Assembly (NCBI GenBank): GCA_016286445.1
Contig: JAEESS010000012.1
Location: forward strand, 1-45,380
Source: Bacillota bacterium
Lineage (GTDB): Bacteria; Bacillota; Clostridia; Christensenellales; CAG-138
DNA: 45,380 nucleotides
Direction of reading: 5' to 3'
Below the pieces are notes generated by a model. The model was not told where the DNA came from. It did not search any database and saw only the letters and a list, made by a program, of their open reading frames with translations. Below, piece by piece: positions 25,113 to 34,436 of the stretch. Each line of letters starts with the position of its first letter. Position 1 is the first letter of the stretch. A program made the position numbers and the translations under genes.

Positions 25113-25177
25113 TTGATTGAAACTGACAAAGGCGTTATAATATAAAAAATTATAGCTGAGAATGCGGTCATATGCAA
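25113..25177. promoter_or_regulatory. Overlapping divergent promoter pair with symmetrical -10 boxes
   Basis: Plus strand: TTGATT (25113-25118), 17 bp, TATAAT (25136-25141), driving the RiPP operon. Minus strand: TTGCAT (25172-25177), 17 bp, TATAAT (25149-25154), directed at tyrS. The two -10 boxes form an inverted repeat separated by 7 bp, so the two polymerase footprints would exclude each other. Confidence 0.7.
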
Positions 25178-25241
25178 ACAGGATTCACAGATGTGTGACG
25201 GCGCCGGATGCGTTCCGGAACGTACGGAAAGGAACGACCGG

Positions 25242-26012
25242 ATGGAAAATGCCCCGATCCACTTCACGGCGGAACTGGCGGATGTACCGTTCGAGGTGCG
25301 CTGCCTTTACCCCGAGACGGAAGCGCTGTTGAAGGACTATCGGTCGGACAAGGCGCCGGCATTCACGATCGACCTGACGGACGGCGAGTGCGATTGGGTC
25401 CGGAAGCTGCTCACGGAGCAATGGGACAAGCAGACGGATCCGTTTGCGACCTACGGAAGATCCGATAAAGAGACGTACATCGAGGAAGAAACCTTCCACT
25501 GGATGCTCGATCAAAAGCTCAGTCCCTACGGCGTGTTCCAGCTCCACGGATCAGCGATTTGTCTTGACGGCGAAGCGTACGTCTTCACCGCGCCGAGCGG
25601 AACCGGCAAGAGCACACACACACGGCTTTGGCGCGAACGGTTTGGCGACCGCGTCTGGATGATCAACGACGACATGCCGTATCTTCGGATCTTCGATGAC
25701 TGCGTGCGCGCATACGGAACGCCTTGGGACGGCAAGCATCACTTGAGCTGCAACGGTTCTGCGCCGATCAAGGCGATCGCGTATCTTCGACGGGACGCCG
25801 AAAACCACATCGAACCGCTGCCGAAGGAAACGGCGTTTGCGGTCGTGATGAAAGGAACGTTTCGTCTGCCGGACAAGGCATGGTGGGCGCGTATGATGGG
25901 GCAGATCAAAACGGTCCTCGACAGGATTCCGTTTTATAAGCTCCGCTGCAACACGGAACCGGAAGCGGCGGAAATTGCCCTGCGCGGCATGAAATACGGT
26001 GAACTCCGGTAA
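25242..26012 (+). CDS. HPr-kinase-like P-loop protein of a RiPP operon
   Basis: A 256-residue cytoplasmic protein of the HPr kinase/PEP-carboxykinase-like fold found in peptide-modification loci. The core is LHGSAICLDGEAYVFTAPSG running into Walker A SGTGKST (residues 119-125). An Asp pair (143-144, MINDDMP) follows where the Walker B acid is expected, then a typical AYGTPWDGK segment. Homologues in some lasso-peptide clusters phosphorylate the peptide, but this is only a family analogy. I chose the ATG at 25242, with AAGGAA 9 nt upstream; an ATG at 25191 lacks a ribosome site. It is the first gene after a sigma-A promoter and precedes the 40-residue precursor gene by 50 bp. Confidence 0.83.
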   Translation: MENAPIHFTAELADVPFEVRCLYPETEALLKDYRSDKAPAFTIDLTDGECDWVRKLLTEQWDKQTDPFATYGRSDKETYIEEETFHWMLDQKLSPYGVFQLHGSAICLDGEAYVFTAPSGTGKSTHTRLWRERFGDRVWMINDDMPYLRIFDDCVRAYGTPWDGKHHLSCNGSAPIKAIAYLRRDAENHIEPLPKETAFAVVMKGTFRLPDKAWWARMMGQIKTVLDRIPFYKLRCNTEPEAAEIALRGMKYGELR

Positions 26013-26062
26013 AACCGGATTACACATATAAAGGATAGAAGCTACAGAAAGGAATCTCGACT

Positions 26063-26185
26063 ATGGAAAAGTACGAAGCCCCTTCGATGGAGATCGTTGA
26101 GCTGGAAGGCAGCATCGTGACGTTCGGTATTCCCGGCTTGCCTGACAGTGGTCATGGCGCTTCCGGAAACCAGAACGCTTGCTAA
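26063..26185 (+). CDS. Putative RiPP precursor peptide, 40 residues
   Basis: This short gene lies between the kinase-like and radical SAM genes. The leader-like half is MEKYEAPSMEIVELEGSIV, with a YExPxxE motif like those recognised by PqqD-type domains in lasso and related leaders. The core-like half is Gly/Pro/Ser/His-rich: FGIPGLPDSGHGASGNQNAC. It ends in its only cysteine. No double-Gly export site is obvious. AAGGAA lies 8 nt before the ATG. Codon use and position fit translation. A strong hairpin follows the stop. It is too short for common gene callers and I infer its role from context. Confidence 0.78.
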   Translation: MEKYEAPSMEIVELEGSIVTFGIPGLPDSGHGASGNQNAC

Positions 26186-26195
26186 ACCTTGAAAT

Positions 26196-26231
26196 GGATC
26201 GGCGAAGCTATTTTGCGGCTTTCGCCGATCC
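26196..26231 (+). promoter_or_regulatory. Strong hairpin between the precursor and maturase genes
   Basis: GGATCGGCGAAGC (26196-26208) pairs with GCTTTCGCCGATCC (26218-26231) with one bulged base. No U-tract follows, so it is more likely an mRNA-stabilising or partial read-through element than a full terminator. Confidence 0.7.
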
Positions 26232-26259
26232 GCGAAGAATGTTCTAAAACAGGATAATT

Positions 26260-27564
26260 ATGAAAGAATTACACAGACCGGATGAGATGTTCGGAAAGAT
26301 ATTTCCGGCACAGACACCGCGGTCTGGGATTTTTTACGTTCCGTCACAGTTTTCTCTGCCGTTTATCCATCGCGGAAAGTCTTATGTATTCAACACGATG
26401 ACCAAGCAATGTGTGGAAGCGGAGCTCCCGGCTTCCGCGACGGCGAACGGAGATTTTGATGAGTTGATCAAGGGACGTTTTCTGGTGCCGAAAGGAACGG
26501 ATGAGCTTGTATACTATCGATCCATTATTTCTTTTTTGAAGGCATATGAGCAAAAGAATCTGAAAAAGGGATATACGATCCTGCCGACGCTCGGCTGCAA
26601 TGCGCGCTGCGTATATTGCTTTCAGGAGGGTATGCAGCAGATCGGCATGACGCATGAAACGGTCGAGGATGCGCTGCGTTTTATCCTGAACGACTGCGGC
26701 GGAAAAGAGATTACGTTGAGCTGGTTCGGCGGAGAGCCGCTTTTACGCGAGGACGTGATCGATCGGATTACAAGCGGCGTAAAGGAAGCAGGCGTCGAAT
26801 TTAAGAGCCTGATGATCAGCAACGGCAGTCTGATCACACCGGCAACGATCGGGAAAATGGTCGATCTTTGGCGTGTTCAGTCGATTCAGATCTCGATGGA
26901 CGGCGCGGAACGGGATTATATTGCCCGCAAACGGTATCTCACGTATCGCGACGACTACCATATTGTGATTGACGCGATTCAGCGTATGTCGGATGCGGAT
27001 ATCCAGGTAATGGTTCGCTGTAATGTGGACGAAAACAATCTTCCGGGCGTACCGCGTTTTTTGGAGGATCTTTCCGCGGGGATCGGGAATAAAAAGAATG
27101 TCAGCGTATATCTCTCGCCGGTGTATCAGGAACTGCAGAAAAAAAACAGCATGAAGCTTTGGTCCGATATTCTTGCAATGGAGAACAGGATCGAAGCGGC
27201 GGGATTTTCCGTTTCATTTGAACGGATCGGTTTTGCGCTTTCCGCTTTTCATTGCTTATCGGATGCAAACGGGATCGTGATCGCCCCGGACGGAAAGCTG
27301 CATTGCTGCGAAGAACTTGCGGAGGGTTCCGTGATCGGAACGGTCCGCGACGGCATAAAAGACCCAGACGCTCGCAAAGCGTTTGCGCGGATTCGGCCGG
27401 TTCCGGGGAAATGTGAGGATTGCAAGTTTCTCCCGATCTGCATGCCGTTTCCGACCTGTCCCAAATTCGGACTTCTGTGTCGGGAAGGCTATACACTTCT
27501 GACGTTGGACGCATTGAGAAAAATGATCGATAACGAAATGAAAGGAAAAGAGGGTTTGGCATGA
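26260..27564 (+). CDS. Radical SAM/SPASM peptide maturase
   Basis: A 434-residue radical SAM enzyme that should modify the adjacent peptide. The SAM-binding [4Fe-4S] motif is C113-N-A-R-C117-V-Y-C120, followed by the GGEP motif (157-160). The C-terminal SPASM domain has cysteines at 332, 349/350, 385, 388, 394, 400 and 407, in the order expected for two auxiliary clusters. Residues 1-100 form an N-terminal extension with strand-like segments seen in peptide maturases. The ATG at 26260 has AGGA nearby. Its stop overlaps the PqqD-like gene (ATGA). SPASM enzymes make thioether, C-C or other cross-links or epimers; which applies here is unknown. Confidence 0.92.
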   Translation: MKELHRPDEMFGKIFPAQTPRSGIFYVPSQFSLPFIHRGKSYVFNTMTKQCVEAELPASATANGDFDELIKGRFLVPKGTDELVYYRSIISFLKAYEQKNLKKGYTILPTLGCNARCVYCFQEGMQQIGMTHETVEDALRFILNDCGGKEITLSWFGGEPLLREDVIDRITSGVKEAGVEFKSLMISNGSLITPATIGKMVDLWRVQSIQISMDGAERDYIARKRYLTYRDDYHIVIDAIQRMSDADIQVMVRCNVDENNLPGVPRFLEDLSAGIGNKKNVSVYLSPVYQELQKKNSMKLWSDILAMENRIEAAGFSVSFERIGFALSAFHCLSDANGIVIAPDGKLHCCEELAEGSVIGTVRDGIKDPDARKAFARIRPVPGKCEDCKFLPICMPFPTCPKFGLLCREGYTLLTLDALRKMIDNEMKGKEGLA

Positions 27565-27821
27565 AGCTCAAGGACAGTTTTATTACACAGGACATTGACG
27601 GCACGCAGTTTATGGTCGCTGTCGGAGAAACCACTTTTACCGGCATTGTTCGCAGCAATAAGACCGCCGCGTTCATCGTGGACTGCCTGAAAACCGAAAC
27701 GACCAAGGAACAGATCGTCGATGCGATGTGCAAAAAATATGACGCGCCGAAAGAGCGGATCGAAGCCGACGTGGAGATGATCCTTGAAAAGCTGCGCGGG
27801 ATCGGTGCTTTGGATGAGTAA
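27561..27821 (+). CDS. PqqD family peptide-recognition protein
   Basis: An 86-residue RiPP recognition element that binds the precursor leader and presents it to the maturase. It begins MKLKDSFITQDIDGTQFMVA, the usual PqqD strand region, followed by IVRSNKTAAFIVDCLKTETT and a helical C-terminus ending EMILEKLRGIGALDE. Length and pattern fit stand-alone PqqD/RRE proteins. It overlaps the radical SAM gene by 4 bp and the methyltransferase by 8 bp, so the three proteins are translationally coupled. Confidence 0.92.
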   Translation: MKLKDSFITQDIDGTQFMVAVGETTFTGIVRSNKTAAFIVDCLKTETTKEQIVDAMCKKYDAPKERIEADVEMILEKLRGIGALDE

Positions 27822-28539
27822 GCTGACTGCATTGATCAAAAAAGGATTCCGGTTTGCCAAAAGAAAGCTCAGAAAGGCGTATGTTGCATTCAGCAGACGC
27901 GTTTTGCGCATACAGGATTGGATCATAGATCGCCGGATTTGCGGGCGGAGCCTCGGCAAGATCGTCCTGGACATGTGCGGAGATGAAAAGAACCAGATCG
28001 GCGGGACCGGGACGGAGTCGTCTCACTACGTCTATCTGAAACGCATCTTTTCCTACATCCGTTTGGATGAAACGGACAAGGTCCTGGACATTGGCTGCGG
28101 AAAAGGCAGGGTCTTTGCCTTCTTTATCAAAGAAAAATATCCCTGTAGGATCGACGGGATCGAGCACAACCCGGACGTCGCGAAGGTCGCGCAGGAATGG
28201 ACGGCGAAGTATCCGCAGATCCGCGTCACGGTCGGCGACGCATTTCTGGCGGATTTCGATCAGTATACGGTCCTGACGCTTTCGCGTCCGTTCTTCTGGC
28301 ACACGTACTGCGAATTTGTGGAGAAGCTGGAGGAAAAGCTGACGCATCCGATCGCGATGCTTTCCTGGCATGAGGATCCGCGTGTCAGAGACTTTATCAA
28401 GGTCCGTCCGGGCTGGCATATCGTGCATCACGAATTTACAAACCGCATCCACGGACTGTATCTGAGAAATTGCCCGCAGCCCTTCACCGTCTGGACCTAC
28501 GATCCGGCCGAGCGGAAGGCGCAGGAACCCTGCGACTGA
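27814..28539 (+). CDS. Class I SAM methyltransferase, last gene of the RiPP operon
   Basis: A 241-residue protein with a basic N-terminal helix (residues 1-40, many Lys/Arg) and the SAM-binding motif I VLDIGCGKGRV. DGIEHNPDVA is the acidic loop of motif II. The C-terminal half, with HPIAMLSWHEDPRVRDFIKV, is family-specific. It shares the unusual segments DRRICG(R/Q)SL, THPI, PFTVWTYDP and RKAQE with the protein at 29042-29821, so the two are paralogues. The ATG at 27814 lies within the PqqD gene (8-bp overlap). It could methylate the peptide, but a small-molecule or lipid substrate is also possible. A terminator follows. Confidence 0.86.
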   Translation: MSKLTALIKKGFRFAKRKLRKAYVAFSRRVLRIQDWIIDRRICGRSLGKIVLDMCGDEKNQIGGTGTESSHYVYLKRIFSYIRLDETDKVLDIGCGKGRVFAFFIKEKYPCRIDGIEHNPDVAKVAQEWTAKYPQIRVTVGDAFLADFDQYTVLTLSRPFFWHTYCEFVEKLEEKLTHPIAMLSWHEDPRVRDFIKVRPGWHIVHHEFTNRIHGLYLRNCPQPFTVWTYDPAERKAQEPCD

Positions 28540-28562
28540 CGCGGGTCCGCACCTGTCATACC

Positions 28563-28585
28563 GCCGCCTGTACGGCGGCTTTTTT
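28563..28585 (+). terminator. Terminator of the RiPP operon
   Basis: GCCGCC (28563-28568) pairs with GGCGGC (28574-28579) around TGTAC, followed by six T residues. Confidence 0.9.
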
Positions 28586-28647: not shown

Positions 28648-29037
28648 ATGGAAACGACGGAGAGGAGACAGGAAGCGATCGAACGGAAGCACGGCGGGTA
28701 TAACTGCTGTCAGGCGGTGCTGTGCGCGTTTCAGGATCTGACGCCGTATACGGAGGAACAGCTCTATGCACTCGGCGCGGCGTTTGGCGCCGGCATGGGC
28801 GGCATGGAAGCAACCTGCGGCGCGTTGGTCGGCGCGGGCATGCTGCTCGGGATCGTCAAAGACGGTCAGCCCGTCATGCGTGACGCAAGAGCGCTGCACC
28901 GCGCGTTTACGGAACGATGCGGCGCGTCGCTGTGCAAGGACCTGAAGGGCAGGGATACGGGAACGGTGCTTTGTTCCTGCGACGACTGCGTGCGAGCCGC
29001 AGTCGATCTGATCGGATCCCTTGCGGAAAAGGAGTAA
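28648..29037 (+). CDS. C_GCAxxG_C_C family protein
   Basis: A 129-residue cysteine-rich protein of the C_GCAxxG_C_C family, thought to be redox-active. Visible cysteine motifs are NCCQAVL, ATCGALVGAG, ERCGASLC and LCSCDDC. The spacing matches the family pattern, which in other members has been linked to electron transfer or metal binding; the role is not established. The ATG at 28648 has AAGGAG 6 nt upstream; an earlier in-frame ATG at 28597 overlaps the promoter. It lies between two paralogous methyltransferases, and the second starts 4 bp after its stop. Confidence 0.88.
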   Translation: METTERRQEAIERKHGGYNCCQAVLCAFQDLTPYTEEQLYALGAAFGAGMGGMEATCGALVGAGMLLGIVKDGQPVMRDARALHRAFTERCGASLCKDLKGRDTGTVLCSCDDCVRAAVDLIGSLAEKE

Positions 29038-29041
29038 GCAG

Positions 29042-29821
29042 ATGGCACAAAAGCCTGCCGGCACCGAGCATACGTCTTTTCCAAAACCGGATGGATCCTC
29101 GGAAAGCGCTGTGAAACCGGTACGCCGGATGAATCAGGTTCTCAAAAGAGTCGATCGGGCAATCTCAAGCAGACTTCTGCGTTTTACAGACGGTTTCATC
29201 GATCGCCGTATTTGCGGTCAGAGTCTCGTCAAACCGGTCCCGAGCATGTTTCGGGATGATCGGAAGGGGATCGGCGGCACGTCTTCCTCCCCTACCCACT
29301 ATGCCTTCTTAAAACGTATCTTTTCACATATCGAGCTGAAGCCTTCGGATACGGTCCTGGACGTCGGATGCGGGAAGGGCCGCGTGCTCGCGTTTCTTCT
29401 CAAGGAAAAGTGTCCGGGCAGGCTTTACGGAATAGAGTACAATCCTAAGGTCGCAGAGATCGCAAAGAACTGGTCGGAACGGTATCCGCAGGTACAGATC
29501 CTCATCGGCGACGCGTTTGAATTGAACTGCAATGACTACACGGTTCTGACTCTTGCGCGATCTTTCCTGCCGGTAACATACGAGTTGTTCGTACAAAAAC
29601 TGGAGGAAACGCTGACGCATCCGATCACGCTCGTTTCGTGGTATGATCAGGGCAGCGTGCGATGGATGAAGAAACGTCCCGGCTGGCGCATGGAATACCA
29701 TGAGCTTGTCAAACGAATCCGCGGCTTGAGAATTGCGTCGAGTCCCCAATCCTTTACCGTCTGGACCTATGATCCGGAAGCACGGAAGGCGCAGGAGGCA
29801 AAAGCAGAAGCCGGCGCATGA
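29042..29821 (+). CDS. Class I SAM methyltransferase, paralogue of the RiPP-operon enzyme
   Basis: A 259-residue methyltransferase. After a variable N-terminus of about 45 residues it aligns with the protein at 27814-28539: DGFIDRRICGQSLVK, HYAFLKRIFSHIELK, motif I VLDVGCGKGRVLAF, the acidic loop YGIEYNPKVAE, TLTHPITLVSWYDQG and SFTVWTYDPEARKAQE. AAGGAG precedes the ATG by 7 nt. It shares a transcript with the C_GCAxxG gene and is followed by a terminator. The duplication suggests two acceptors of related kind, perhaps one tied to the peptide. Confidence 0.86.
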   Translation: MAQKPAGTEHTSFPKPDGSSESAVKPVRRMNQVLKRVDRAISSRLLRFTDGFIDRRICGQSLVKPVPSMFRDDRKGIGGTSSSPTHYAFLKRIFSHIELKPSDTVLDVGCGKGRVLAFLLKEKCPGRLYGIEYNPKVAEIAKNWSERYPQVQILIGDAFELNCNDYTVLTLARSFLPVTYELFVQKLEETLTHPITLVSWYDQGSVRWMKKRPGWRMEYHELVKRIRGLRIASSPQSFTVWTYDPEARKAQEAKAEAGA

Positions 29822-31097: not shown

Positions 31098-34000
31098 TTG
31101 CAGAACAGATGGAGGAAGATCCTTGCGCTGATCCTTTGCCTTGCAATGGTTCTGGCGCTGGCACCCGCGACCGCTTCGGCGGACGATCGCGTACCCAACA
31201 AAGATTCAGCGGCACAAAGCGCCGACGGCGTCGAGCCGATTTCCGACGCGGAAAGCGTGCCGGGCGACAAGATACAGATGCGCCCCGCCGAGAGACCGGG
31301 CGCGGCTTTTCCCGAAAAGGAAGCGGATCCCGGAACAAGCTCGGCGCTTGATGCAAAGCCGGCGGAGGAAAAACCGGAGGAACCGGATTGTGTTGTGACC
31401 GATTCCGAAAAGAAGGATCCCGTTCCTCTCGAAATGTCGCCCAAGAGCGACGTATATGAGAATACCGATATGAAGCTCGGCTGGAACAGCTTTACGGTCA
31501 GTACGGGCGGAGACGTCGTCTATCAGCGGTTCACGGCGCCGGTGTCCGGTACCTATCGGTTCTTTACGTTTGGAGACGACGATACGGTGGGATATCTGCG
31601 CAACGACTACGGAGAGCTTCTCACCTCCGATGACGACGCCGGATACGTTGACAACTTCTGCATCACATACGATCTGACCGAAGGTCGGCTGTATTACATC
31701 GGCTTTAAGTTTTTTAGCAGCGATACTACCGGCACCGCTTACATTATGGCAGAACGTTTCGTAACGGCAGATCTGTGCCGTGAGGGACGCAGCTGGTTCG
31801 ATATCCTCACGGCGGGTGACACGGTTTACAGGACCTTTACGCCGAGTGTTTCGGGAACATACCATATCTATTCCCTGTCCGACGATGATACGTTCGCCTG
31901 GATCGCATATGAAGACGATGTCGTTTTTCAGTACAACGACGACGGCGGATATAACAATCAGTTTGAACTGACGGTTGATCTGAGTGCGGGATCGGCCTAT
32001 CGGATCGGCGTACGCTATTACGATACCGAAACGCAGAACGGCAGCATTCCGGTCATAATCGAGCGGCAGGACGTGCAGACCGAACCGCTTCATCTCGGTA
32101 TCAACTGGCTCAGCGTCAATACCGCCGGCGAAACCGTGTACCGTTCCTTCACGGTGCCGTTTGGCGGTTATTACTGGATTTTTTCCGCGCAGCCGTTTAG
32201 CGGCACGCTTAGCGACACGATCGGAAAAATCGCAGACGACTCTATGAAGGTCTATATGTGCGACGACGACAGCGGGACACAAAGCTGCTTCTTGATGCAA
32301 ATCTCCAATATGAAAGAGGGCGACGTCATCAATATCGGCGCGTCGTTCTACGATCCTACCCTGACGGGCAGTATCCCCGTCATCATCAGCTATCCGTGGG
32401 AAGAATATGACGAATGGGACCTGAAGGTCGGTGACAATACCTACAACGTGGAATGGGCGGGCAGTCTGCCGATCGTCGGCTTTACACCGACCGAGTCCGG
32501 AACGTATCGGATCCGTTCCACCGGGAACAGCGATATCTACGGCGTGCTCTTTGACAGTGAGTTAAGACCGCTCCTGTATCACGATGACGTCTCAGGCTCC
32601 GACGAAAACTTTATGTTCGAGTATGATATGGAAGCCAACGAAACGTACTTCGTCGGCGCATGCTTCTGGGATTGTAACACGACAGGGACCTTCAATGTCA
32701 ACATTAAAAACCTGACAGGGTCCTCGCTGCCCGCGTTTGACGGCACGATCGAATGGAATCCAAGCGATGTGCAGTTCAAAGGCGCAACGCCCTATGTCGT
32801 CTATCACGGCGCTGCGTTCACGCCGCGCTTTACGGTGAAGGACAAGAACGGAGCCGTCGTCAATCCGAGCCATTACACCTATGAGTACCGCGAGAACGTC
32901 AACGCCGGCACCGGCTATGTGATCGTAACATTCAACGATCTGTATGCCGGCAAGGCGCAGGGCTGGTTCAAAATCTATCTGCCTCCGACGTCTGCAACGA
33001 CGGTCGAAAACGTTCAGGACGGCATTCGGATCAAGTGGGAGCCCGTCACCGGCGCAGCAGGCTATGTCGTTTACCGCCGCGCGTGGAGCACTACGACAAA
33101 CGGCTGGACGGACTTCTTGCGCTGGAACAATACGACCGCGCTTTCGTATACGGACACCAGCGTATATGCGGGCACACGCTATCAGTACGGCGTGAAGGCG
33201 TACTTTGCACAGCGTACCGATCCGGTTTCCGGCGCGACGATCGGCGGAAACGTCGGCGACAATTACAACCTCGGCATGGTGGGTCCCTTGAAGACCACCG
33301 TGCGCATCACGACGCGAACGCTTTCAAAGCTCGAAGCCGGCAGCGGCAGGGTCACGGCGTACTGGGATGCGTCGAAGGTCTTTACGGGCTATCAGATCAA
33401 GTACGCCACCAATGCGGCGTTCTCAAAGAACGTCAAATCCGTCTGGATCAGCGACGCAAAGACGGCGTCGAAGGTGATCACCGGGCTCACGAACGGCACG
33501 ACGTATTACTTCTGCGTACGCTCCTATCACGTCTTTGAAGGTACGAAGTATTTCGGTCAATGGTCCAATGCGCTGTCCATCAAGCCCGGCAGCGCGGGAA
33601 CGGTCACACCGAAGAGCTACAGAGCGCTGCTGGTCGGCGAGGTGAACTTCAACTGGGGCGACGGTTCATATGAGACCGCAAAACGCAACGGAGGCGACGT
33701 CGAGCATATGGCGTCGATGCTGAAGTCAGTCAAGGGATCGAACGGAAGCGCGTATACGGTCACGAAAAAGACGAATCTCGGCAAGAGCGGTTTGGAAAAC
33801 GCGATCAAGAACACGTTCTCCGGAACGACCGATCAGGATGTCTCCCTGTTCTTCATTGCAACGCACGGAGACAGCAGCGACGAGGGTCAGCTCGTCCTGA
33901 CGGACGGCTCCAACTGCACGCAGTGGATATCGTTCGGACAGCTTGCCGCCATGCTGTCGAAATACGTCAAGGGCGACGTCATCGTGATCATCGAATCCTG

Positions 34001-34436
34001 CGGCGCAGGCTCCGCGATCTATGCGAACGGTGCAAAAGCGCAGGACTTCGATCCTGAGCTGTTCGCGATACAGGCGGTGCAGGCGTTTGCCGAAGCGGAT
34101 CAGAAGTCGGACGTTGCCAATACGGGTGAGCTGCGAAAGAGCAGATATTATGTGCTTGCCGCGGCAAAGCATCATCAGGACAGCTGGGGACACGAATGGG
34201 AGCCGGCGGGCAACTATTTCACAGACTGGCTGATCGAGGGCATCGGAGACTCCGGTTCCATGCCTGCGGACACGAACAAGGACAATGTTGTCACGCTGAA
34301 CGAGCTCTATAAATACATCGCGAAGTATGATACATATACGTTTTCATACCTTGATTCGGAAGACCATGTGATGACGGCGACGCAGCAGGTGCAGGTCTAT
34401 CCGGTAAACAGCAGTTATAAGCTGTTCAAACGGTAA
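31098..34436 (+). CDS. Secreted multidomain caspase/legumain-like protein
   Basis: A 1112-residue exported protein starting at TTG 31098 (AAAGGGGAG 5 nt upstream). A signal peptide (about 1-29) and an acidic linker precede four repeats of about 95-110 residues, each with (V/I)xTxGDxVY...F, SGTY and DDD/DDxG motifs, like extracellular pre-peptidase C-terminal domains. Then come an immunoglobulin-like module (YEYRENVNAGTGYVIVTFND) and two fibronectin III-like domains. The C-terminal clan CD peptidase domain has the dyad His923 (FFIATHGD) and Cys968 (IIESCGAGS). A calcium-loop-like D-T-N-K-D-N-V segment follows near the end. No cell-wall anchor is visible, so it is probably released or bound through its repeats. 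Target unknown. Confidence 0.88.
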   Translation: MQNRWRKILALILCLAMVLALAPATASADDRVPNKDSAAQSADGVEPISDAESVPGDKIQMRPAERPGAAFPEKEADPGTSSALDAKPAEEKPEEPDCVVTDSEKKDPVPLEMSPKSDVYENTDMKLGWNSFTVSTGGDVVYQRFTAPVSGTYRFFTFGDDDTVGYLRNDYGELLTSDDDAGYVDNFCITYDLTEGRLYYIGFKFFSSDTTGTAYIMAERFVTADLCREGRSWFDILTAGDTVYRTFTPSVSGTYHIYSLSDDDTFAWIAYEDDVVFQYNDDGGYNNQFELTVDLSAGSAYRIGVRYYDTETQNGSIPVIIERQDVQTEPLHLGINWLSVNTAGETVYRSFTVPFGGYYWIFSAQPFSGTLSDTIGKIADDSMKVYMCDDDSGTQSCFLMQISNMKEGDVINIGASFYDPTLTGSIPVIISYPWEEYDEWDLKVGDNTYNVEWAGSLPIVGFTPTESGTYRIRSTGNSDIYGVLFDSELRPLLYHDDVSGSDENFMFEYDMEANETYFVGACFWDCNTTGTFNVNIKNLTGSSLPAFDGTIEWNPSDVQFKGATPYVVYHGAAFTPRFTVKDKNGAVVNPSHYTYEYRENVNAGTGYVIVTFNDLYAGKAQGWFKIYLPPTSATTVENVQDGIRIKWEPVTGAAGYVVYRRAWSTTTNGWTDFLRWNNTTALSYTDTSVYAGTRYQYGVKAYFAQRTDPVSGATIGGNVGDNYNLGMVGPLKTTVRITTRTLSKLEAGSGRVTAYWDASKVFTGYQIKYATNAAFSKNVKSVWISDAKTASKVITGLTNGTTYYFCVRSYHVFEGTKYFGQWSNALSIKPGSAGTVTPKSYRALLVGEVNFNWGDGSYETAKRNGGDVEHMASMLKSVKGSNGSAYTVTKKTNLGKSGLENAIKNTFSGTTDQDVSLFFIATHGDSSDEGQLVLTDGSNCTQWISFGQLAAMLSKYVKGDVIVIIESCGAGSAIYANGAKAQDFDPELFAIQAVQAFAEADQKSDVANTGELRKSRYYVLAAAKHHQDSWGHEWEPAGNYFTDWLIEGIGDSGSMPADTNKDNVVTLNELYKYIAKYDTYTFSYLDSEDHVMTATQQVQVYPVNSSYKLFKR

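Follow-up and report, generated by a model that had tools for sequence, protein, structure and literature searches.

A radical SAM peptide cassette in a Christensenellales genome: a likely branch of the LPP/paeninodin-type system whose leader peptidase and exporter are probably encoded in trans

The stretch of DNA analysed here (the window, 45,380 nucleotides; contig JAEESS010000012.1 of assembly GCA_016286445.1, from a Bacillota bacterium of the Christensenellales, CAG-138) carries on its forward strand, at 25113-28585, a five-gene cassette for a ribosomally synthesised and post-translationally modified peptide (RiPP). We consider it likely that this cassette belongs to a widespread radical S-adenosylmethionine (SAM) branch of the system typified by paeninodin-type lasso peptides and by the linear polyphosphorylated peptides (LPP), with leader removal and export supplied in trans. 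LPP, encoded by lppAKBSDN in Paenibacillus alginolyticus, were published in 2026 (PMC13381572).

All five open reading frames (ORFs) were found at 25113-28585, and the set named in the original prediction from this DNA (an HPr-kinase-like protein, a 40-residue peptide, a radical SAM/SPASM enzyme, a PqqD protein and a class I methyltransferase) does lie there between a promoter-like and a terminator-like site. The features, with the basis of each assignment, are:

25113-25141, forward strand: promoter-like site of the sigma-70 type, TTGATT-17-TATAAT, matching 10 of 12 consensus positions (consensus match alone)
25242-26012, forward strand: HprK-like P-loop peptide kinase, 256 amino acids (P-loop, PEPCK/HprK-like fold, dN/dS)
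26063-26185, forward strand: precursor peptide, 40 amino acids, leader Y4-x-x-P7 (leader hidden Markov model (HMM), dN/dS against the sister locus of genome G063)
26123-26182, forward strand: putative core FGIPGLPDSGHGASGNQNAC, 20 amino acids, if the leader is cut after T20 (analogy with the LPP cut site, shared core)
26260-27564, forward strand: radical SAM/SPASM peptide maturase, 434 amino acids (Pfam, invariant cysteines, structure match 5wgg)
27561-27821, forward strand: stand-alone RiPP recognition element (RRE) of the PqqD type, 86 amino acids, with N33, Y60 and D70 (Pfam, match to TbiB1 in the PDB, conserved residues)
27814-28539, forward strand: class I SAM methyltransferase, 241 amino acids (Pfam, distribution across the family genomes)
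28563-28585, forward strand: intrinsic-terminator-like element, a hairpin at 28563-28579 followed by a T run (motif scan, sequence)
29042-29821, forward strand: second methyltransferase, a paralogue 51% identical to the first, of uncertain membership in the cassette

The Radical_SAM, PqqD and methyltransferase domains of these proteins pass their Pfam cut-offs; the kinase has no Pfam hit and its NCBIfam hits are all below threshold. Its P-loop (G120-K123), H126 and D144 are invariant in 30 rows, and a Foldseek search with its AlphaFold2 model (pLDDT 92.9) gave PEPCK and HPr kinase at probability 1.00 (E between 5e-7 and 8e-6 in those rows), with modest TM-scores of 0.3-0.55. We describe it as HprK-like by fold and P-loop, with a predicted activity. 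The RRE has TbiB1 as its sole PDB hit (E 0.011), and in 68 aligned rows, one of them TbiB1, N33 is kept in 66, Y60 in 59 and D70 in 53. In the maturase, a CX3CX2C motif and seven C-terminal cysteines are all invariant in 22 rows. None of the NCBIfam models shown (the best 25 of 75 for the maturase and the best 25 of 30 for the methyltransferase) reaches its cut-off for any of the five proteins. The earlier description of a RiPP-type cassette with several modification genes is supported. Purifying selection acts on all five genes: dN/dS against the G063 sister locus (L040) is 0.143 for the kinase, 0.130 for the peptide, 0.217 for the radical SAM gene, 0.075 for the PqqD gene and 0.139 for the methyltransferase.

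Among the literature matches listed, LPP is the only close one; the leader strings themselves matched no paper in the literature search. Compared with what the main text of the LPP paper sets out, the two systems share an HprK-like kinase within the cluster; a stand-alone RRE for YxxP leaders, in which the LppB contacts carry the same residue numbers as N33, Y60 and D70 of the window protein (LppB was not aligned); and a short precursor, with a spacing of 18 or 19 from tyrosine to serine in most members of the family studied here. LppK phosphorylates core S3, at a distance of 18 from Y-16 of LppA, and LppS (S29, H68, D93) cleaves after T-1 together with LppB (PMC13381572). The window genome likewise encodes a Ser-His-Asp signal-peptidase-like leader peptidase (contig C4), an MsbA-like exporter (C70) and an NTP transferase of PF14907 (C7), the last of putative identity with LppN. 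The LPP cluster, however, itself holds the SipW-like peptidase and the MsbA-like exporter, both absent from the window locus; the leader consensus differs, with MEVIELxxDVIT in the radical SAM family and VLxHQxIxFET in LPP; and LPP is linear, without a cyclising enzyme, whereas the window cassette has a radical SAM/SPASM maturase (which may cyclise its peptide), an additional methyltransferase and dispersed parts. Neither ‘radical’ nor ‘SPASM’ appears in the main text of the LPP paper. By its membership features we would not file the cassette as LPP, though apart from the additional radical chemistry it would operate in the same way.

Of the candidate trans factors, the peptidase and the exporter are usually single-copy. 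A single SipW-like peptidase match (E <= 1e-10) was found in the window genome, on C4, in a second cassette with two peptides, a radical SAM gene and a PqqD gene; C70 carries a second HprK-like kinase gene adjoining that for the MsbA-like ABC exporter; and the C7 gene encodes an NTP_transf_5 nucleotidyltransferase, a family over its cut-off in 15 of 23 genomes of the genus. Genome G076 repeats this three-contig split of cassette, peptidase and kinase plus exporter (C13, C81 and C52). Of the 103 genomes in the taxonomic family, 59 have the peptidase, and in 57 of these, G068 with its four tandem radical SAM genes among them, it gives a single match; its Ser21, His59 and Asp74 are invariant in 23 of 23 rows; the exporter gives one match each in 39 genomes (E <= 1e-80). 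The absence of exporter and protease noted in the original prediction is true of the locus but does not extend to the genome, and its suggestion of export by a distant system is consistent with the peptidase on C4 and the kinase and exporter on C70, whose service to this cassette we infer. Genomes with the radical SAM gene carry these partners more often than those without: 28 of 31 against 31 of 72 for the peptidase (p 7e-6), 28 of 31 against 27 of 72 for HprK (p 4e-7) and 19 of 31 against 20 of 72 for the exporter (p 0.002).

Relatives of the maturase (E <= 1e-20) are encoded in 31 of the 103 family genomes, and a scan of one genome per species gave at least 565. The 79 loci kept from that scan come mostly from metagenome-assembled genomes (MAGs) labelled Clostridia, Ruminococcaceae or Lachnospiraceae, whose sample names often point to the ruminant gut. 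Some are from Prevotella/Xylanibacter, single contigs bear labels such as Planctomycetes and Coriobacteriaceae, and a few are from isolates (R. flavefaciens ND2009, Ruminococcus FC2018 and Erysipelotrichaceae NK3D112). In the cultured R. flavefaciens ND2009 (L130), one run contains the peptide, radical SAM, kinase, RRE and peptidase genes. At 110 non-redundant loci (from 129 radical SAM instances, at <=95% identity), with partners counted on the same strand within 3 kb (peptide) or 5 kb (others), we found a leader peptide at 78, PqqD/RRE at 68, an HprK-like kinase at 43, a SipW-like peptidase at 37, an MsbA-like exporter at 17 and a methyltransferase at three, these last three rows being two contigs, because the single methyltransferase gene at the G063 locus is counted with both radical SAM genes in its vicinity. 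Kinase, peptide, PqqD, peptidase and exporter stand together in eight rows on seven contigs (L057, L059 and L060 among them). ‘Compact’, as the locus was first called, is apt for the window cassette but not for members in which peptidase and exporter lie in the same run, and ‘unfamiliar type’ was too strong, given that kinase, RRE, SipW-like peptidase and exporter form the set laid out in the text of PMC13381572 and that relatives number in the hundreds.

The leader has a YxxPxMEVIELxxDVITxS-type consensus across the family. The leader HMM used for the 110-locus count was seeded from those same loci, and a separate model was trained on own-family loci alone; run on 65 other loci, it gave 33 hits, 28 of which have a radical SAM gene on their own strand no more than 4 kb away, against a background of 2544 of 9842 small ORFs (p 2e-12), and reached 24 of the 65 loci with such a hit. 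The YxxP leader thus recurs beside related radical SAM/PqqD genes, which answers the earlier worry that such genes might occur without any conserved short peptide. Cores recur as well. The window core GLPDSGHGASGNQNAC, identical in G076, has a ..GHGxxGNQxAC-type pattern common to the window and seven other loci; this group of eight includes the G063 member NLPDHGQTGGASASC, together with GLPGHGGTGNAPACGN, GLPGHGGNGNVDGTCCN, GLPGHGNDGNVDANCCN, FLPPHGGEGDQDACGN, GIDFGHGLGGNQPAC and NLPCHSQSGNQDASYTC. A strict form of the pattern matches 10 of 19,172 small ORFs (nine copies of core-group peptides and one unrelated ORF) and misses L056 and the window peptide, which has two extra residues, SG; the window and L056 cores align without gaps, identical by eye at 9 of 15 positions. 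In a 48-row tree the maturases of the eight loci occupy two distinct regions (two changes, a value as low as that being reached in 0 of 500 shuffles), and since one core sits with two separate radical SAM clades, this suggests either convergence of the core or an exchange of peptide and enzyme.

We propose the following order of events, which we infer from the gene set and from the LPP analogy. The PqqD-type RRE would bind the Y4xxP7 leader of the 40-residue precursor and present it; the radical SAM/SPASM enzyme would then cross-link the core, most likely through a thioether from the single Cys40; the cassette kinase would phosphorylate a core serine, S29 or S34, these being proposed because the canonical position 18 residues past the leader tyrosine (Tyr+18) is a glycine; the methyltransferase would add a methyl group; the C4 peptidase would remove the leader, probably after T20; and the MsbA-like exporter encoded with the second kinase on C70 would export the product. 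A thioether is our first guess for the maturase product because the best solved-structure match is 5wgg (E 8.5e-21), which we take to be the thioether maturase CteB, and because a cysteine follows the leader in 61 of 63 YxxP-type peptides. As to the phosphosite, the conserved serine of DVITxS stands 18 or 19 residues past the leader tyrosine in 50 of these 63 peptides (background serine frequency downstream 8.6%, 112 of 1304; a further 24 distinct peptides without YxxP were left out of the count) and is absent from the window, G063 and L058 peptides. Peptides without serine at Tyr+18 make up 11 of 29 (on 7 contigs) where the locus has a kinase gene and 2 of 34 where it has none (p 0.004), which we read, from a statistic that ignores phylogeny, as pointing to a dedicated cassette kinase for a moved phosphosite.

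Several points weigh against this reading. The co-occurrence counts include copies inside radical SAM cassettes and are partly built in; within the genus the association is weak. There the peptidase is present in 13 of 13 genomes with the radical SAM gene and in 7 of 10 without it (p 0.07), HprK in 12 of 13 and 5 of 10 (p 0.05), and the exporter in 9 of 13 and 6 of 10 (p 0.7); common descent and linkage thus account for some of the association. Nor is the peptidase specific to the radical SAM gene, as its presence in 31 of 72 genomes without that gene shows. The SipW-like and MsbA-like labels rest on sub-threshold NCBIfam scores (26.5 against 51.85 and 205 against 602), PDB kin and the LPP analogy. 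None of the partner genes stands at 15 of the 83 loci with at least 1.5 kb on both sides. Of the LPP motif YxxPxVLxHQxIxFETxxS, as given in the paper's main text, the window peptide keeps YxxP alone, with HQ and FET missing and Gly22 at the canonical phosphoserine position; with serine loss commoner in kinase-bearing loci, the window phosphosite is a guess. With 2 of 63 YxxP peptides lacking a cysteine after the leader, thioether formation is not a family-wide rule. Finally, the source MAG is 82% complete with 5.6% contamination.

The best of the other explanations, though an unlikely one in our view, is a stand-alone ranthipeptide- or sactipeptide-like system in which a thioether would be formed by the radical SAM enzyme, kinase and methyltransferase would be dispensable extras, and the resemblance to LPP would reflect no more than shared ancestry of RRE and leader. 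The match to 5wgg, the near-universal cysteine and the 25 of 83 flanked loci with peptide, or peptide and PqqD, alone would fit this, as would the PapB and SCIFF-maturase models, which match below cut-off. The maturase scores, however, fall well short throughout: among the best sequence matches, 143 of 525 bits for TIGR04463, 105 of 600 for Clo7bot, 103 of 400 for geopeptide and 86 of 340 for PapB; on the ranthipeptide (SCIFF/PapB) cut-offs, 47.3 against 425 (TIGR03974) and 85.5 against 340 (NF047865), so that no ranthipeptide or sactipeptide model shown is over its cut-off. To our knowledge, HprK-like kinases and SipW-like peptidases are no part of those families, and the kinase and peptidase counts (43 and 37 of 110 loci) speak against this alternative. 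Two other known systems come close in part. The paeninodin-type lasso loci likewise have an HprK-like kinase, a PqqD-type B1 protein and a [Y/W]xxP leader; here the lasso B2 transglutaminase-like peptidase (PF13471) is over cut-off in 0 of 23 genus genomes, with a partial sub-cut-off match in two of them (the window genome not being one), and no Pfam hit to an asparagine-synthetase-like cyclase was found among the five genes at 25113-28585, to which that search was limited. SynChlorMet offers weak ScmC and ScmE matches to the kinase and radical SAM proteins (20.1 against 125 and 51.5 against 400 bits).

It is far less probable that the product stays inside the cell as a cofactor or regulator, in the manner of PQQ or mycofactocin, with no need of peptidase or exporter. 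Their absence from the locus would be explained in this way, but this genome encodes both in trans, the complete set including the exporter stands together in the eight rows mentioned above, and a related core, LPGHG or LPPHG, is found at loci with a neighbouring exporter gene, L057, L059 and L100. Least probable of all is a decaying remnant, now without a product, from which peptidase, exporter and phosphoserine have been lost: the lack of a local S26 or ABC gene and the replaced serine would suit it, but dN/dS of 0.08-0.22 in all five genes, intact radical SAM, SPASM and P-loop residues, and a G063 sister that lacks the same genes locally yet keeps the same leader all speak against it.

Returning to the proposed radical SAM branch of the LPP/paeninodin-type system, its value lies in part in the pairing of HprK-type peptide phosphorylation with radical SAM/SPASM chemistry on one RRE/leader system, which was not found among the literature matches listed. 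Its carriers are frequent in ruminant-gut metagenomes, and since leader peptidases and exporters are predicted to act in trans, genome mining that insists on a full cluster would overlook them. Rumen isolates are credited with 153 RRE-containing clusters (PMC13289728); some of the clusters counted there may already be loci of this kind, recorded but not assigned to a class. The GHGxxGNQxAC-type core beside two radical SAM clades, and the peptides with and without the canonical phosphoserine, offer a ready test set.

More tentatively, and with somewhat less than even confidence in the whole, we suggest a dispersed hub of kinase, RRE, mostly single-copy peptidase and exporter, and nucleotidyltransferase that would serve many unlinked peptide ‘spokes’, either with a radical SAM gene (the window and C4) or orphan, the window cassette having a kinase of its own because its phosphosite moved. 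Orphan peptides, many directly behind genes for secreted proteins, would then join a system that spans the genome and whose peptides are exported, phosphorylated and, in part, cross-linked by radical chemistry. A run of kinase, RRE, peptidase and exporter genes without a radical SAM gene is present in several genomes.

The locus L178 (3943-7283), where a leader-type peptide is followed up in a single run by kinase, PqqD, peptidase and exporter genes and there is no radical SAM gene, is a plain clostridial LPP-like locus; L185 resembles it but lacks the peptidase. Leader-type peptides numbered 60 in all, spread over 19 of the 23 genus genomes, and 32 of them lie outside known cassettes, including one in the window genome (G000, C7, 66980-67078). 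Inspection of 14 regions of this latter kind (L193-L206, 4.5-9 kb each) revealed no maturation gene by HMMs; in 8 of the 14 the peptide stands behind an ORF on its own strand whose start resembles a signal peptide (background by the same test, 92 of 521 ORFs), within -37 to +19 bp in 7 of these 8. The locus L061 (7896-14050) has four tandem radical SAM/SPASM genes with leader-type peptides, such as LANDVVTASGEPTPTDTPEPTPC; across the 19 kb examined, neither a kinase nor a PqqD nor a peptidase gene was found. Between the window and G076 (L039), the radical SAM gene (26260-27564) shows a dS of 0.003, against 0.35 for the kinase, 0.55 for PqqD and 0.14 for the methyltransferase, which may reflect either a recent exchange or a binning artefact.

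The methyltransferase is nearly cassette-specific: strong hits occur in 3 of 103 family genomes, exactly those with this cassette, with one weak hit in G073, and homologues at 34-39% identity in four genomes of the class that belong to another family. Its structure model is poor (pLDDT 65), with RNA and lysine methyltransferases as the top Foldseek matches. Asp follows LP in both distinct methyltransferase-linked peptides (window/G076 and G063), and a PCMT Pfam match was found (25.3 bits, cut-off 20.3; residues 61-142 alone, weaker than Methyltransf_25); we do not claim a role in aspartimide formation, as the L056 peptide also has an Asp (GIDFGHG) in a genome, G018, without a methyltransferase hit. 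At five distant methyltransferase loci examined with HMMs, no RiPP partner gene turned up apart from ABC-type ATPases. In L168-L170, from three genomes of one genus, the distant homologues adjoin the same two large ORFs, with one extra ORF between in L170. The two methyltransferase genes are adjacent in G076; in the window a gene for a C_GCAxxG_C_C redox protein (28649-29037) lies between them.

At the borders of the cassette, promoter-like and terminator-like matches numbered 7 and 8 in the scanned region against 2.6 and 4.6 in shuffles, which makes the flanking sites modest evidence. The likely start of the kinase gene is the ATG at 25242, with an AGGA-type ribosome site just 5′ of it (by eye). 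PHROGs gave general radical SAM and weak methyltransferase matches, nothing else, and so no link to phage. Further downstream, at 31098-34436, the window encodes a protein of 1112 residues whose start looks, by eye, like a signal peptide; a caspase domain (Peptidase_C14) spans its residues 842-1031.

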